DNA of 64,000 nt from Halorussus rarus (GCF_003369835.1 NZ_QPMJ01000002.1:1054001-1118000); one strand, 5' to 3'; shown: positions 1 to 7,203, counted from the stretch's first letter. The notes: generated by a model from the sequence alone, not told the origin. A program made the numbers and translations.

Positions 1-675
1 GTCGACCGAGAGCGAGACCGTCTGGGTCCCTCCGGCGTCGCCGGCGTTGTCGACCGTCGCGGTGACGTCGACCGAGTCGCCCTGGGTCGCCGGCGAGGCG
101 ACGGCCAGATTCGAGAGCTGGAAGTCGGCCGGCGCCTCGGCCGCCTGGACGGTCACCGTTGCGGTGCCGAGCTCGCCGAGTTCGTAGGTGCCGCCCTGCT
201 CGTCGGCGAAGTCCAGGATCTGGTCGACCCCGCCTGCCTCGGCCGGCGAGACGATCGAGAGGTCGGTCGACCCGGCCGACTGGCCCTGGAGGGTGACGGT
301 CAGCACGGTGACCGCGCCGGTGTCGGCGGTGTCGTCGAACGCGTAGAGCGCGCTCGCCGCCGAGCCGTCGTCGGCTATCGACGGACTCGCGCTGCCGGGG
401 TCGTTCCCGGCGCTGACGTCGACGACGGTCGCGACGCTCGAGTCGCCGACCTCGACGCCGATCTGTCCGGCGCCGACGCCGCCGTCGGCGTCGTCGAGGA
501 CGACCTCGACCGTGGTCGTCTCTCCGGGCGCGATCTGTGATTCGGCGGGCGATACGCTGAGGCTCGTGGCGCCGGCCGCGCTGGCGACGCCGCCGACCGT
601 CGAGAGGACGGTCAGCGCCGCGAGCACGACCGCGAGGGTCCTGGTGGACCGCTGGGGTGTGGTGTCTGAGTTCAT
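1..675 (-). CDS. Secreted cohesin-domain protein (partial, runs off the left edge)
   Basis: 225 codons are visible from the ATG at 675; the C-terminus lies outside the window. Residues 1-35 form a signal peptide: a short basic start, then an alanine/leucine/valine-rich core ending in GVASAAGA. Residues about 36-155 have the cohesin pattern: a PGETTTVEV strand, a segment VATVVDVSAGND, a SALYAFDD strand and a V-LTVTLQG strand followed by a glycine/serine turn. From about residue 160 the text (DFQLSNLAV, then a GDSVDVTATVDNAG strand) looks like the start of a CARDB-type adhesion repeat. The gene follows, on the same strand and 141 nt downstream, a gene ending in a dockerin, so the two products are plausible binding partners. 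The cohesin call rests on pattern recognition; a generic Ig-like envelope domain is the alternative. Confidence 0.72.
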   Translation of the reverse strand, partial: MNSDTTPQRSTRTLAVVLAALTVLSTVGGVASAAGATSLSVSPAESQIAPGETTTVEVVLDDADGGVGAGQIGVEVGDSSVATVVDVSAGNDPGSASPSIADDGSAASALYAFDDTADTGAVTVLTVTLQGQSAGSTDLSIVSPAEAGGVDQILDFADEQGGTYELGELGTATVTVQAAEAPADFQLSNLAVASPATQGDSVDVTATVDNAGDAGGTQTVSLSVD

Positions 676-816
676 CTGTCGGTTCCGTGGTCGGTTTCGT
701 GCGGTTCGTCTCGCGAGGTGCGTGCGGTCGCGGCGCCCGAGCGGGGGAGGCTAACCTCTGGAGTGGCCCCGGGACGTCGCCGCGCGGTCCGCGCTGGAGT
801 CCGTGACACGGAGTGA

Positions 817-3800
817 TCAGCTCCCGGCCACGAGGTCGGCGAACAGCGCCTGGGCGTCGCCCGCCGTGACCGCGCCGTCGCCGTTGACGTCGAAGGCGTC
901 GACGTCGCCCTGGACGACGGGGTCGTTCAGGTTCGCGAACAGCGCCTGGGCGTCGGAGACGGTGACCGTCCCGTCGCCGTTGACGTCCTCGTAGACGCCG
1001 TCGCCGTCGGGGTCGGTCGGCGCGTTCTCGAAGTCGCCGACCGGTCCGGGTCCGGCGTCGGCGCTCTGATCGTACTTCAGTATCGCGACGTTCGACGTCA
1101 GGCCGGTCTCGCCCTCGCCGTCGTCGGCGGTCGCGACGAAGTAGTTCAGCCCGCCCGCGGCCGAGCTGTTCGTCAGCGCGACGGGGATCTCGGCGGTCCC
1201 GTCGGCGCCGACGGTCGCGGCGTACTCCTCGACCTGGATGACCGTGTTCGCCTCGTAGGCTTCGACGTCGTAGCCCGGCGTACCGTCGTACGTCGGCACG
1301 CCGTCGAGGTTCAGTTCGCCCTCGACGCGGAGCAGCGTGACCGTCGACCCGGGTTCGGCCTCGACCGTGATCGTCTGGTTCGCGGACGCCACGGTGGCGG
1401 CCGAGTGGGCGGGCGACAGCGTGGTCTCGCCGAGCGAGACGTTCGCCACGTCCACGGTCGGGGCGGCCGCGACGTCGGCGTCGGCGGTCGCCTGCGAGCC
1501 GCCGGCGCTGCCGTCGCTGAAGAGGCTGGTCACGGCCGTCGCGCCGTCGGCGAACTCGACCGTCATCTCCGACCCGGACAGCTCCAGTCCGGAGATGGGA
1601 CCGGCCTCGCCGCTCTGGACGCTCGACCCGCCCTTGATGCTGGTCGGGTCGTTGTCCATCTCGAAGGTGATCGACTCGCCCGGCTCGAACGCGCCGAACT
1701 CGATCTGGAGCGCGTCGTAGCCGTCGGAGCCGTCGACGCCGTTGTGCGGGTCCAGCACGGTCGCGTCGACCGTGCCGCTCGTCCCGTTGTCGTCGAGGAT
1801 GAAGCCTTTCGCGCCCTGGTCGCCGGCGGTGCCGTCGGGGTCGAACACCGCGTCGGGCAGCACCGCCGAGCTCAGGTTCAGCGTGACCGTCTCGATGGGC
1901 TCGTCGCCGGTGTTCTCGATCTCGAACGACTCGGCGTCCCACGTCGTGGCGTCGATGCCCTCGCCGTCGTCGATCTCGATGGTCGCCTCGCCGTCGGTCG
2001 GACCGTCCGCCGACCCGTCGACCTCGGCGACCTCGATGGCCGAGACCTTCGGGTTCTCGACCGAGGACGTGAAGTTGACGTCGAGGTCGCCGTCGGTCAC
2101 CTCGACGGTGTACGTCTTCGTCGTCGCGTTGAGCGCGCCGACGTCGGCGTGGATGTCGTAGTCGTCGAGTTCGGGTTCGCCGCCCTCGACGTTCGCGCTC
2201 ATGACGCGCGAGCCGTCGCCGCCGGCGTCGCCGTGGTCGGTGCCGAACCAGATCTCGGCGAGGTGGACGGTCACCTCGTAGGTGCCGTCCTCGACCGGGA
2301 ACGAGTAGTTCACCGGCGCGCCGCTCTGGCCGTACCGCTCGGTCAGGTACAGCGCGTCGTCGTCGGTACCGCCGATGTCGGTGACGCCGTAGTTCGCCGA
2401 GACGTTCGTCGTCTCGCCGCCGGCGAAGTAGTCGTCGGCCTGGTACGTCGTCCCGTCGGCCGCGGTGTACGTCGAGCCGCCGGCGTTGACCGCGAAGACG
2501 ACCTCGCCGGCCTGCTGGTCGTCGTCGATCACGGTGACGTTCACCGCGTCGGTGTCGGTCGCGCCCTCGGCGTCGCTCACCGCGACCTCGAAGGTCAGCG
2601 TCGTGTTACCGTCGACGTCCGGCGCGGTGAACGACGGGACCGCGTCGTCCTGGGCGCTGAGCTGGACGTCCGGTCCGGCGGTCTGGGTCCACGAGTAGCC
2701 GAGTTCGTCGCCGTCGGCGTCGGTCGACCCAGAGGCGTCGAGGCTGACCGATTCGTTCTCGTCGACCGTCTGGTCGGCGCCGGCGTCCGCGGTCGGCGCG
2801 GCGTTCGCGCCGATCTCCGTCACGGTCAGCCGGTCCCAGGAGGCCGAGAACGTCGAGCTGGCGCCGTTGGCCGTGCTGATGAGGCCCACCGCGAGCCCCC
2901 GGGTGTCGTCGGCGTACCAGCTCTCGGGCATCGCGAACGTCTGGTCGAAGAACGTCCGGTTCCCGTCGTCGATGGCGTAGCTCGCCACGACGGTGTCGTT
3001 CGACGGGTAGACGTCGAGGTAGAGATCGATGGTCTGGCCGCTGCCGAACACGTCGGGTTCGGAGACCACGACCGAGTCGGCGTTACCGACCTGTCCGTCG
3101 ACCTCCTTCAGGAACTGGACGCCGCCGTTCGGGTCGCCGTCGGCGTCCTGCGCTCCGGCGACCAGCTTGACGTAGTTGTCCTGGTCGCCGAGGCCGAACT
3201 GCACGCCGGCGGCCTGCCAGTTCTCGGGCGTCATGTCGTCCGAGAACGGGGATTCGACCGTCGTGTGGACGGTGAACGGCGCGTCGCCCGTCGCGTTCAC
3301 GCCGTACTGGAACCCGTACGTCTGGGAGTTCTTGCCCTCGTAGGCGTCGCCGAACGGCACCTCGTCGACCGAGAGCCGCTCGGTCGCGCCGCCCGCCCGC
3401 ACCTGCGAGGCGTTGTAGAGGTCGGCGTAGTCGGTGCCGTTGGTCATCAGGCCGGTGAACCCGAGGCCGAACAGCGACCGGGGGTGCTGGCCGGCCTCGA
3501 ACTGCCGGTCGACCGGCAGGTCGTTGTCGAGCCCGTTCTGGGGGTCGAGCGCGAACGGGTCCTGGCCGTCGGTCAGCCCGTCGTCGTCGTCGTCGTCGTC
3601 GACAGAGTCCGGGACGCCGTCCTGGTCCCAGTCCTCGGGCTGGGAGGCCTGCGAACAGGGGTCGGTGCCCGCCGCGTTCTCGTCGGCGTTGGTGTAGCCG
3701 TCGCCGTCGGCGTCACCGTCCGGGTCGTACTCCGGGGAGTCCGGGTCGGCCCCGACGCACTGGCCGCCCGTCGAGTCGCCGTAGTCGTTGGGCTCGAAGA

Positions 3801-6081
3801 CGGTGATCTTGTTGCTGCCGTACGTGGCCGCCCACACGGTGCCCGGGAACGCGTCGTCGTCGCCCTGCGCGTGGACGTCGAGCGGGTTGCTCCCGATGTT
3901 CTGGAAGAGGGGTTCGGAGGCCGTCGCCTCGGTGCCCTGGGCGTTCAGTTCGACGCGCTGGACGTCGCCGGAGTTCCACATCGCCAGCAGCAGGTCGCCC
4001 TGCAGCGCGCCGCCGAAGTTCGACGCCGGGTAGACGTCCATCCCCTGGGGCGTCGCGCCGAAGGTCTCGAGCGCCTCGCTCGGCGTCGAGGAGTTCGTGG
4101 GCGAGATGTAGTCGCAGTTCACCGGGTCGTGGAGGCCGTCGTCGACCGCGGCGGCGAACTCGCTGGTGTCGTTGCCGCGGGTCGGGTTCGGGTGGCCCCC
4201 GTAGTAGTCCTCGCCCTCGACGTGGTAGACGCCCGTCGCCGAGTACTCGTCCTGCTCGTTCTGGGCGTTGGTGCACTGGCCCTGGGGCCCCTCGTCGACG
4301 ACGATGCCGCCCCAGCCGGGGTTGGCGCTGTTGTCGGTCGCGTACAGCTCGCCGTCCTCGCTGAGCGCGATGTCGTAGGGGTTCCGGAAGCCCGGCGAGT
4401 AGACGTCGACCGGACTGTCGGCGGTCCAGTTGGCCATGTTCGCGCCGTCCTGTCCGCCGAAGGGCGTCTCGGTGCCCTGGAGCGTCGGCAGGTCGTACAG
4501 GTACGTCGAGTCGGTGTGGGCGGCGTCCTTCTCGGCCATCGCGTCGACCTGCGACAAGTCGACCGAGAGGATGGCCGCCGAGAGCGCGTACTCGGGCGTC
4601 AGCGCGAAGTTGTCCGAGGGGGCGCCCTTGTTGGTGTGGCCGCCCTGCGCGACATAGAGGACGTCCTCGGCCTCGTCGTACTGGATGCCGTTCGTGGCGT
4701 GGTTCTCCTCGGAGCGGGGCAGCCCGCGCACGAGCATGTCGTGGTCCCACCCGGAGTCGGTCTGGGTGAGCCGCGAGACGACGCCGGAGTTGGTGTCGAG
4801 CCCGCTGTCGGTGTGGCCGCCGCCCGCGCCGATCCGCGGGTCGCTCGACGTGACGTACAGCACCGGCGTCTCGGCGGTACCCTCGACCGTGAGCCCTGTC
4901 ACCTGGCGATTGCCGACGCTCGGGTTGTACGCGCCGTCGTCGTCGTGGTTCGGGATGTCCTGGACCGCCGTGATGACCTCGGTGCCGACGACCTCGTAGT
5001 CGTTCTCGCCGTTGCGGGCGATCTCGAACGCCTTGATCTCGCCGCTCTGCTGGGCGACGTAGAGCCGGCCGTCCGGACCGAAGTCGAGCGACGTCGGATT
5101 GCCGAGGTCGGCGCCGAGCCCGCTGACGCCGAAGCCGACGGGCACGTCGCTCGCGCCCTCGCCCGAGAGGTCGACCGTCACCGGCGAGTTGCTCCCGCTG
5201 TGACTGACCTCGAGGGACGCCGACTTGGGCTGGGCGTCAGACGGCGCGAACGTCACCGGGACCGACGCCGTCTCGCCGGGCGCGAGCGTCGTCGCGCTCG
5301 CCGCGCCGGTCGAGAACTCGTCGGCGTCCGCGCCCGCGACCGACACGTCCGTGATGGAGATGTCGGCGTCGCCGGCTCCGCCGAGATTGGTGAGCGTGAT
5401 CTGCTCGGTCGCGCTACTGCCCGCGACGACCGTGCCGATATCGAGCGTCGAGGGGGCGCCGAGCGTGTTCGGCTGTGGCTCGGCGCTCACGATTTCGATG
5501 GCGTTGAGCTGGGGGTTCTCCGTCACGTGGGCGAAGTCGACGTCGATCGTCCCGTCGCTGACGACGGTGAACGACTCCATACCCCCAATCTGGTCGCCGT
5601 ACTCGGCGATGGGGTCGAAGTTCTCGACGGTCTGGTCCTCGACGCTCACGTCGAAGACGCGGTCGCCGGGCTCGCTGGTCCCGGAGTAGCCGTCGTAGAA
5701 GTAGAGCCGGACCTCGACCTGCCGGCCCGACTGGACGTCGAACTCGTACCCCATCTCCCCGTCGCTGGGCGGGTCGTACCGTTCGTTCGTCCAGATTCCC
5801 GCGGGCGCGCCGTCCGGCACCGACGCGTCGAGCGAGTCCGGCGCCGGACTACTCGACGTGTCGGAGTCTCCCGAGACGAGGTATCCGGAGTCATCTTCCC
5901 AGTCCGGCCCGTCGGCGGCGGCGACGCCTCCGCCCGCGTTGACTCGATACAACACGTCGCTCGCTTGTTGGGCGTGCGCTACCCCGACACTCGACAGCGC
6001 GCCGGCTCCCGCCGCCGACGCTACCAACAGTACCGAAAAGACGACCGCCAGTACTCGCGTCGTTCGATGCGTCCCGTTCAT
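817..6081 (-). CDS. Giant secreted multidomain protein with C-terminal dockerin
   Basis: 1754 residues from the ATG at 6081; the open frame extends to a GTG at 6255 but the signal peptide begins at 6081 (core LAVVFSVLLVASAAGAGAL, cleavage near AHAQQA). Order of domains by rough residue: malectin-like 40-200 (VLYRVNAGG); choice-of-anchor/ASPM-SPD-2-Hydin-like 205-305; six-bladed glucose/sorbosone-dehydrogenase-type propeller 310-770; Asp-rich thrombospondin type 3 repeats 775-840; a beta-sandwich 845-1090; PKD 1090-1183 (DADGDELGYSWTQ); second malectin 1187-1355; two unassigned beta domains to 1670; duplicated dockerin about 1695-1750 with two Ca-binding loops, DVNGDGTVTVSDAQALF and DVNGDGAVTAGDAQALF. 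It probably binds or oxidises carbohydrate at the cell surface and docks onto a cohesin partner, perhaps the next gene. Substrate is unknown. The opposite strand is open for about 4.7 kb, a GC codon-bias shadow. Confidence 0.88.
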   Translation of the reverse strand: MNGTHRTTRVLAVVFSVLLVASAAGAGALSSVGVAHAQQASDVLYRVNAGGGVAAADGPDWEDDSGYLVSGDSDTSSSPAPDSLDASVPDGAPAGIWTNERYDPPSDGEMGYEFDVQSGRQVEVRLYFYDGYSGTSEPGDRVFDVSVEDQTVENFDPIAEYGDQIGGMESFTVVSDGTIDVDFAHVTENPQLNAIEIVSAEPQPNTLGAPSTLDIGTVVAGSSATEQITLTNLGGAGDADISITDVSVAGADADEFSTGAASATTLAPGETASVPVTFAPSDAQPKSASLEVSHSGSNSPVTVDLSGEGASDVPVGFGVSGLGADLGNPTSLDFGPDGRLYVAQQSGEIKAFEIARNGENDYEVVGTEVITAVQDIPNHDDDGAYNPSVGNRQVTGLTVEGTAETPVLYVTSSDPRIGAGGGHTDSGLDTNSGVVSRLTQTDSGWDHDMLVRGLPRSEENHATNGIQYDEAEDVLYVAQGGHTNKGAPSDNFALTPEYALSAAILSVDLSQVDAMAEKDAAHTDSTYLYDLPTLQGTETPFGGQDGANMANWTADSPVDVYSPGFRNPYDIALSEDGELYATDNSANPGWGGIVVDEGPQGQCTNAQNEQDEYSATGVYHVEGEDYYGGHPNPTRGNDTSEFAAAVDDGLHDPVNCDYISPTNSSTPSEALETFGATPQGMDVYPASNFGGALQGDLLLAMWNSGDVQRVELNAQGTEATASEPLFQNIGSNPLDVHAQGDDDAFPGTVWAATYGSNKITVFEPNDYGDSTGGQCVGADPDSPEYDPDGDADGDGYTNADENAAGTDPCSQASQPEDWDQDGVPDSVDDDDDDDGLTDGQDPFALDPQNGLDNDLPVDRQFEAGQHPRSLFGLGFTGLMTNGTDYADLYNASQVRAGGATERLSVDEVPFGDAYEGKNSQTYGFQYGVNATGDAPFTVHTTVESPFSDDMTPENWQAAGVQFGLGDQDNYVKLVAGAQDADGDPNGGVQFLKEVDGQVGNADSVVVSEPDVFGSGQTIDLYLDVYPSNDTVVASYAIDDGNRTFFDQTFAMPESWYADDTRGLAVGLISTANGASSTFSASWDRLTVTEIGANAAPTADAGADQTVDENESVSLDASGSTDADGDELGYSWTQTAGPDVQLSAQDDAVPSFTAPDVDGNTTLTFEVAVSDAEGATDTDAVNVTVIDDDQQAGEVVFAVNAGGSTYTAADGTTYQADDYFAGGETTNVSANYGVTDIGGTDDDALYLTERYGQSGAPVNYSFPVEDGTYEVTVHLAEIWFGTDHGDAGGDGSRVMSANVEGGEPELDDYDIHADVGALNATTKTYTVEVTDGDLDVNFTSSVENPKVSAIEVAEVDGSADGPTDGEATIEIDDGEGIDATTWDAESFEIENTGDEPIETVTLNLSSAVLPDAVFDPDGTAGDQGAKGFILDDNGTSGTVDATVLDPHNGVDGSDGYDALQIEFGAFEPGESITFEMDNDPTSIKGGSSVQSGEAGPISGLELSGSEMTVEFADGATAVTSLFSDGSAGGSQATADADVAAAPTVDVANVSLGETTLSPAHSAATVASANQTITVEAEPGSTVTLLRVEGELNLDGVPTYDGTPGYDVEAYEANTVIQVEEYAATVGADGTAEIPVALTNSSAAGGLNYFVATADDGEGETGLTSNVAILKYDQSADAGPGPVGDFENAPTDPDGDGVYEDVNGDGTVTVSDAQALFANLNDPVVQGDVDAFDVNGDGAVTAGDAQALFADLVAGS

Positions 6082-6462: not shown

Positions 6463-7203
6463 ATGACGCTCTCGGTCGCGGTCGACGACAGGGAACCCGC
6501 GGCGGTCCGCCGGGCAGTCGAGGCCCACGGCGACGTGGTCGCGGTCGACGTGCGGCGGCTCCCGGCGGCCGACTTCGCGGTTCTGGACGGGTCCGGAGCG
6601 GGTAGTGAGTCTTCGACGAGCGACGCTGTAGGCGTGGACGACGCCGCGGAGGGTCGGGTGGTCGGCTCGGTCGGCATCGAGCGCAAGACCGTCGACGACT
6701 ACGTGAACTCCGCGCTCGGGACGACCGGGACAGACCTCCGCGAGCAGGTCGAGAAGATGGCCCGGGCGTACGACCGCGCCTACGTCCTGCTGGAGGGCGA
6801 CCTCGCGGAGGTGGGCGCCGACCGGCCCGGTCTGGACAGCGCCGCGGTCCACGGCACGATGGCGTCGTTCGCGGCCCGCCACGACACGCCGGTCGTCCCC
6901 TGCTCGGACCGCGAGCGACTGGTCGACGTGGCCACCCGCCTGCTCCGCAAACACGGCGAAGCGCCTTCGGCCCGGCCGGTGCCCGGCGGCACCGTGACGG
7001 GGTACTCCATCCCCGTAACCAAACGGCTGTTCGGCTGCATCGAGGGGGTCGGCCCCGCGACCGCCGACGCGCTCTACGAGGCGTTCCCCTCGGTCGAGGC
7101 GCTGCTGGCGGCGACGCCCGCCGAGCTGCGGGAGGTGGAGGGCGTCGGCGAGAAGCGCGCCGCGGCCATCGTCGAGACGCTCCGGGGCGAGCGCGACGGC
7201 TGA
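6463..7203 (+). CDS. ERCC4/XPF-type nuclease with C-terminal helix-hairpin-helix
   Basis: 246 aa. Residues 1-150 form an ERCC4 nuclease domain: DDREP near the N-terminus and IERKTVDDY supply the D and ERK-D catalytic residues of the XPF/Mus81 family. Residues about 185-245 contain two helix-hairpin-helix motifs (GCIEGVGPATADALYEAFP and REVEGVGEKRAAAIVE). This resembles the nuclease half of archaeal Hef or XPF but lacks the helicase, as in the short archaeal XPF form. Expected role: cutting branched or flap DNA during repair or fork restart, probably as a dimer and with PCNA. A low-complexity serine/threonine insert lies at residues 45-65. Confidence 0.9.
   Translation: MTLSVAVDDREPAAVRRAVEAHGDVVAVDVRRLPAADFAVLDGSGAGSESSTSDAVGVDDAAEGRVVGSVGIERKTVDDYVNSALGTTGTDLREQVEKMARAYDRAYVLLEGDLAEVGADRPGLDSAAVHGTMASFAARHDTPVVPCSDRERLVDVATRLLRKHGEAPSARPVPGGTVTGYSIPVTKRLFGCIEGVGPATADALYEAFPSVEALLAATPAELREVEGVGEKRAAAIVETLRGERDG

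Follow-up and report, generated by a model that had tools for sequence, protein, structure and literature searches.

A three-gene cluster in Halorussus rarus encodes a candidate minimal cohesin-dockerin scaffold of the haloarchaeal cell surface

Here, we describe a three-gene cluster, C-B-A, in Halorussus rarus, the products of which probably assemble on the cell surface into a minimal, hierarchical scaffold of cohesins and dockerins, with the dockerin of A bound to the first cohesin of B (B1) and the dockerin of B bound to the cohesin of C. Gene A and the 5' part of gene B lie inside the window, i.e., the 64,000-nucleotide stretch of DNA that was analyzed, and gene C lies outside it (Table 1). 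The genome total, obtained with custom profiles, is exactly three cohesins plus two dockerins, and each of them lies in the C-B-A cluster; one more dockerin match, with an E value of 0.72, is noise. The original prediction was of an adjacent pair of a cohesin and a dockerin protein. Both are indeed present; however, the unit comprises three genes, which together encode all five of these domains. A genome search for further dockerins, as suggested with this prediction, yielded one more, on B, and none outside the cluster.

Table 1. Features of the C-B-A cluster and its borders (positions are those of the window; the prefix L003 marks positions that extend or lie beyond it)
Feature	Position	Strand	Description
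Gene A	817-6081	minus	1754 aa; signal peptide; secreted multidomain protein with C-terminal dockerin (cargo)
N-terminal malectin-like domain of A	5479-5961	minus	~residues 41-201; Malectin_like 113-198, E 0.0099
HYDIN/ASH-type Ig domain of A	5161-5454	minus	residues 210-307; PF22544, E 1.2e-10
Putative beta-propeller of A, glucose/sorbosone-dehydrogenase-like	3772-5151	minus	~residues 311-770; GSDH, E 2.6e-5
PKD domain of A	2530-2784	minus	residues 1100-1184; PF22352, E 5.7e-18
Second malectin domain of A	2035-2502	minus	residues 1194-1349; PF11721, E 1.5e-34
Dockerin of A	829-1026	minus	residues 1686-1751; Pfam Dockerin_1, E 9.8e-10
Gene B	1-675 in the window (5' part); full L003:7534-9675	minus	713 aa; cut by the edge
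Cohesin 1 of B (B1)	139-576	minus	residues 34-179; AlphaFold2 and PDB fold matches
Cohesin 2 of B (B2)			residues 508-640
Dockerin of B			residues 659-710; Pfam Dockerin_1, E 3.5e-8
Gene C	L003:6648-7511, beyond the window		287 aa; 22 nt past B
ERCC4-type nuclease gene	6463-7203	plus	named from its own sequence; borders the inserted cluster on the right
rnhB	L003:5886-6623, beyond the window		left border of the inserted cluster

A was predicted to be a secreted protein that ends in a duplicated dockerin, and this description was borne out by its signal peptide and by a C-terminus that scores 38.9 bits against Dockerin_1 (PF00404; cut-off 22.9), as expected of a type I dockerin. The A dockerin consists of a D-x-D-x-D-G motif immediately ahead of two Ca-loop/helix repeats, in which the Ca loops are DVNGDGTVTVSDAQALF and DVNGDGAVTAGDAQALF and the helix pairs are VS and AG. 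In a search of the own genome, it matched profile A7 with an E value of 8.7e-28, and the CelS dockerin was among the PDB matches (E 5.8e-7). With respect to the remainder of A, the original prediction of a malectin/sugar-dehydrogenase-type protein holds firmly for malectin, for which Pfam Malectin reported two stretches; the GSDH match, however, has 24.1 bits and stays 0.9 bit below the cut-off of 25, and a phmmer search of the PDB with the propeller region gave no match. The Ig domain scores 44.5 bits against NCBIfam choice_anch_D (cut-off 45). The Pfam scan also reported TSP3, and no glycoside hydrolase family was recognized in A in that scan. Judging from its sequence, A is likely a carbohydrate-binding surface protein and perhaps sugar-oxidizing, the latter being a putative activity.

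B starts 141 nt after A and is composed of a signal peptide, the first cohesin, CARDB, a NEW3-like stretch (below cut-off), PKD, the second cohesin and a type I dockerin (34.0 bits; Dockerin_1 cut-off 22.9). The edge-cut neighbour of A on the same strand had been predicted to carry a cohesin-like fold, and it does; as a plain cohesin partner, however, B was described incompletely because it also has a second cohesin and a dockerin of its own. B1 does not reach the cut-off of Pfam Cohesin (PF00963; E 0.014, 16.0 bits, cut-off 24.1), and a scan of the own genome with this model gave no match at an E value of 1. This blank scan is a false negative of the Pfam model, and the haloarchaeal cohesin subfamily is mostly below the Pfam cut-off. 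Using profile A5, which was built from 65 relatives, we found that nine of the 10 distinct PDB sequences listed up to an E value of 1 belong to cohesins or scaffoldin proteins, with a best E value of 0.0014 and with the Archaeoglobus cohesin 2xdh at 0.058. An AlphaFold2 model of B1 based on the A5 alignment has a pLDDT of 94.3, and in a comparison of this model with the PDB (VIA-align), the 50 best entries were all cohesins (Z 10.5-15.0). The top match was 1g1k (rmsd 2.1 A, 129 residues aligned), and the archaeal 2xdh had a Z of 13.6. Residues 36-155, the fold of which had been set beforehand as the point on which the original prediction could fail, are cohesin-like with a Z of 15.0 to 1g1k. 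As modeled, B1 has a cohesin fold. Among relatives, the cohesin of L064 gave a Z of 14.8 against the PDB. The AlphaFold2 model of the cohesin-dockerin tail from Halobellus captivus has a pLDDT of 95.9 and a pTM of 0.84; the dockerin part of the relative's tail model contains helices at 163-171, 176-180, 182-185 and 195-206, and the VIA search rows for the tail model cover mainly residues 1-134, i.e., the cohesin.

In C, a signal peptide precedes the third cohesin-like domain of the cluster, which is followed by an acidic linker and a PGF-CTERM-like tail (TPGFGAATAVAALAAALVALRRLQ); the tail matches TIGR04126 below the threshold (E 7.4e-4, 19.1 bits, cut-off 24.5). A PDB sequence search with C alone gave no match. 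The genome encodes archaeosortase A (ArtA; E 2.8e-96), the presence of which fits anchoring of C. Arguing against an anchor, the C-like proteins of Halorubrum 48-1-W, Haloarcula pellucida and Halomicroarcula rubra have no C-terminal membrane stretch. We suggest that C would function as an anchoring scaffoldin on the haloarchaeal cell surface and would probably be processed by ArtA; that B would be an adaptor, with its dockerin inserted into the C cohesin; and that A would be the cargo, with its dockerin inserted into the first cohesin of B. These interactions would yield a calcium-dependent complex at the surface, by which a carbohydrate-binding or -oxidizing protein is kept at the cell. This is the simplest wiring suggested by the sequences, and B2 would stand outside it. 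At the gene level, the cluster has a cargo with a dockerin (A), a protein with cohesins and a dockerin (B) and an anchored cohesin (C, given the sub-threshold PGF-CTERM match); what separates it from a cellulosome is that plant-polysaccharide-degrading enzymes are not its dockerin cargo. Because the two dockerins of the genome are on A and B and none is on a glycoside hydrolase, we refer to a cellulosome-like scaffold and not to a cellulosome.

The cluster is an accessory insertion at a site common to congeners. rnhB directly adjoins the ERCC4-type nuclease gene, without the cluster, in four congeners (G176, G097, G136 and G171), and in a fifth (G017), an A-B-C cluster adjoins the same rnhB. 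Synteny of A-B-C is conserved in eight loci from three families, and the A orthologues that adjoin B-C in other genomes have 44-75% identity. These loci differ in a manner that bears on which dockerin goes with which cohesin. A has a dockerin in the window genome, Halobellus rarus, Haloarcula pellucida and Halomicroarcula rubra, and it has none in Halobellus captivus, Halorubrum sp. 48-1-W, G017 and G124. Using lax thresholds and with filters off, we found the first cohesin of B in all loci with an A dockerin and in no others (4/4 with versus 0/4 without; Fisher p 0.029, a value that overstates independence because the eight loci are related); in the four loci in which A lacks a dockerin, B carries the second cohesin only. 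The same contrast recurs within two genera, Halobellus and the genus of the window. Moreover, the B1 cohesins of the four loci with an A dockerin group together in the tree (SH-aLRT 97, bootstrap 81), and the window A dockerin shares 77-78% identity with the A dockerins of the other three loci versus 50-63% with B dockerins. The helix pairs are VG in the A dockerins elsewhere and IN, EL, IL and similar in most B dockerins; as an exception, the VG pair is also present in Haloarcula and Halomicroarcula, in their first B gene. The four syntenic loci in which A is without a dockerin imply that recruitment of A by a dockerin need not hold everywhere. On the cohesin tree, the labels are much more clustered than in shuffled sets (12 changes versus 31 for the anchors). 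A clean two-clade split into anchor and adaptor cohesins was considered and rejected, as the labels never form one clade.

A Pfam dockerin is present in 121 and a cohesin-like match in 117 of 293 genomes from the order, part of the weak matches in the latter count possibly being other folds. Per genome, 89 have both, 32 a dockerin only, 28 a cohesin only and 144 neither (odds ratio 14). This co-occurrence takes no account of kinship and counts weak cohesin matches in open frames of ~900 aa, and we therefore dropped it as the main evidence; in its place, we rely on adjacency within loci and on the A-B contrast described above. In 28 of 29 loci that were chosen by a cohesin alone, a dockerin lies within 1.5 kb, where 0.1 would be expected. 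Related loci, gathered with an alignment of cohesin-dockerin tails (A4), have a recurrent layout in which a gene ending in a cohesin and a dockerin is followed by a gene for a signal peptide, a cohesin, a linker and a membrane tail. In Natrinema salsiterrestre, an anchored cohesin is followed by dockerin-tagged GH5 enzymes. Larger inventories are found in two genomes. The same cohesin profile gives 18 cohesin matches in G003, next to 64 dockerin matches; a sample of its dockerin-bearing proteins contained GH5, GH10, GH16, GH43 and other members, and the genome also encodes several multi-cohesin proteins, among them ones with a dockerin or a membrane tail. In G263, a protein of 2089 aa combines a PGF-type tail with 14 Pfam cohesins, distant relatives that pass the Pfam cut-off (E 1.5e-83, 14 stretches), and this protein sits amid dockerin-tagged proteins, with subtilases accounting for seven of the eight scanned in the cluster. 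We consider it reasonably likely that A-B-C represents the smallest form of a haloarchaeal cohesin-dockerin machinery that is widespread, has gone unrecognized, functions in near-saturated salt and includes true archaeal cellulosomes (G003) and a protease version (G263).

The main rival to the proposed wiring is self-assembly of B through B2, in which the dockerin of B would bind B2 of the next B protein to generate a fibre that is rooted on C and decorated with A where A has a dockerin. Such a chain would account for the co-occurrence of B2 and the B dockerin in all eight loci and for the observation that the sole dockerin found in the G017 genome sits on B, despite two cohesins; it also gains from B2-like and C cohesins not being cleanly separated in the tree. 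To our knowledge, however, adaptor scaffoldins of known cellulosomes do not, as a rule, bind themselves, and we regard the chain as unlikely. It is more improbable still that no complex is formed, with the dockerin-like repeats limited to binding calcium or a substrate and each cohesin-like domain serving as a structural Ig-type spacer. The specific cohesin fold of B1, the adjacency of cohesins and dockerins across loci, the joint presence of the A dockerin and B1, and the occurrence in relatives of 14-cohesin proteins beside tandem dockerin enzymes all argue against this explanation, whereas it is favored by the dockerin-bearing genomes with no cohesin match (32/121), including that of Halobacterium salinarum (L098), and by a previous interpretation of haloarchaeal dockerins as substrate-binding (PMC10963439). 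Finally, the many adhesion-type domains in A and B (PKD, CARDB, Ig and malectin) would suit cell-to-cell adhesion, in which the dockerins of one cell bind the cohesins of another; with every partner encoded in one cluster of one genome and no sign of display in trans, we find this very hard to credit. Compared with these explanations, a scaffold of A on B on C remains the reading that we prefer.

Cellulosome-type assembly is associated mostly with anaerobic bacteria. For haloarchaea, a single subtilase-dockerin protein was noted in Halobacterium (PMC2605481), and the breakdown of insoluble polymers has been called almost unknown (PMC10267330); in that work, the cellulosome appears solely as a bacterial model, and cohesin and dockerin are unmentioned. 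We found no description of haloarchaeal scaffoldins or of this cohesin subfamily in haloarchaea in the literature searched, subscription papers being outside its scope. The cohesin profile makes the question of polymer degradation by haloarchaea directly testable, and the A-B-C cluster provides a three-protein test case. Moreover, cohesin-dockerin pairs that withstand salt would make useful components.

The system resembles the clostridial cellulosome with its CipA/ScaA, adaptor and anchoring scaffoldins in that it has a cargo with a dockerin, an adaptor with cohesins and a dockerin, and a putative anchor with a cohesin, as well as the same cohesin fold (Z about 11-15) and dockerins with Ca loops. 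It differs in that the host is a haloarchaeon, a PGF-CTERM-like tail would replace the SLH or sortase anchor, there are only three cohesins and two dockerins, and the cargo is of the malectin/propeller type with no recognized glycoside hydrolase. The secreted haloarchaeal proteins with type I dockerins reported from Natronoglomus and other haloarchaea (PMC10963439) are alike in their dockerins; that report, however, takes the dockerin as substrate-binding and names neither a cohesin nor a scaffoldin. The original prediction held that cohesins and dockerins were reported singly in archaea; they are less rare than this, as dockerin binding has been verified for archaeal cohesin-dockerin systems and ANME archaea have multi-cohesin proteins (PMC9012536). 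The ANME scaffoldin-like proteins described there are likewise archaeal with several cohesins and a dockerin; they belong, however, to anaerobic methanotrophs in which ABC-transporter binding proteins are the common dockerin cargo, and the passages on them describe no A-B-C cluster. Lastly, the non-cellulosomal cohesin and dockerin of Archaeoglobus fulgidus include the archaeal cohesin (2xdh) to which B1 was matched above, and the dockerin of an Archaeoglobales relative (L089) starts with the same DPDGDGLYED; in contrast to A. fulgidus, the haloarchaeal adaptor and separate anchor described here would constitute a graded system.

The haloarchaeal genome G003 (2.72 Mb), presumably from the cellulose degrader Halococcoides cellulosivorans HArcel1, contains 64 dockerin and 18 cohesin matches based on profile searches (loci L158-L168), and the dockerin proteins sampled there include GH5, GH10, GH16 and GH43 proteins. 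In Natrinema ejinorense (L113), GH5 enzymes with dockerin tags are encoded in tandem, together with a rhamnogalacturonan lyase.

Cohesin and dockerin loci in other genomes (coordinates local to each locus; Coh, cohesin; Doc, dockerin)
Feature	Locus	Source
Extra gene between A (dockerin-bearing cargo) and B (adaptor)	L146:6425-8980; L147:6223-8514	two congeners
Coh-Doc-Coh-Doc in a single chain	L093:5464-6948; L114:9854-11296	bacterial MAG
Anchored cohesin gene, then genes for dockerin-tagged GH5 and ricin-lectin proteins	L095:3225-13617; L113	Natrinema salsiterrestre; Natrinema ejinorense
Protein bearing 14 cohesins and a PGF tail, next to tandem subtilases that end in dockerins	L140:7164-13430; L141	G263
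Scaffoldin-like protein, Coh-Coh-Doc	L162:3317-7423	G003
Scaffoldin-like protein, Coh x3-Doc	L168:1575-3884	G003

The product of the A-B intervening gene ends in a helix pair, IDTQTIQTLIDLWVE, that is dockerin-like but without calcium ligands; this pair is a possible partner of B2, the second cohesin of B.

The genome of Halobacterium salinarum DSM 3754 has no cohesin match and encodes a well-conserved dockerin protein (L098); similar dockerins are present at L018, L019, L023, L030 and L107. Separately, the cohesin profile weakly matched open frames of ~890-930 aa in G059, G091, G200, G217 and others, and such frames are common across haloarchaea.

Tandem subtilases with C-terminal dockerins account for 7 of the 8 cluster proteins scanned in G263 and for 5 of 6 in G087 (L144/L145). 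Together with the 14-cohesin PGF-tailed protein, the dockerin-tagged subtilases represent a candidate protease cellulosome.
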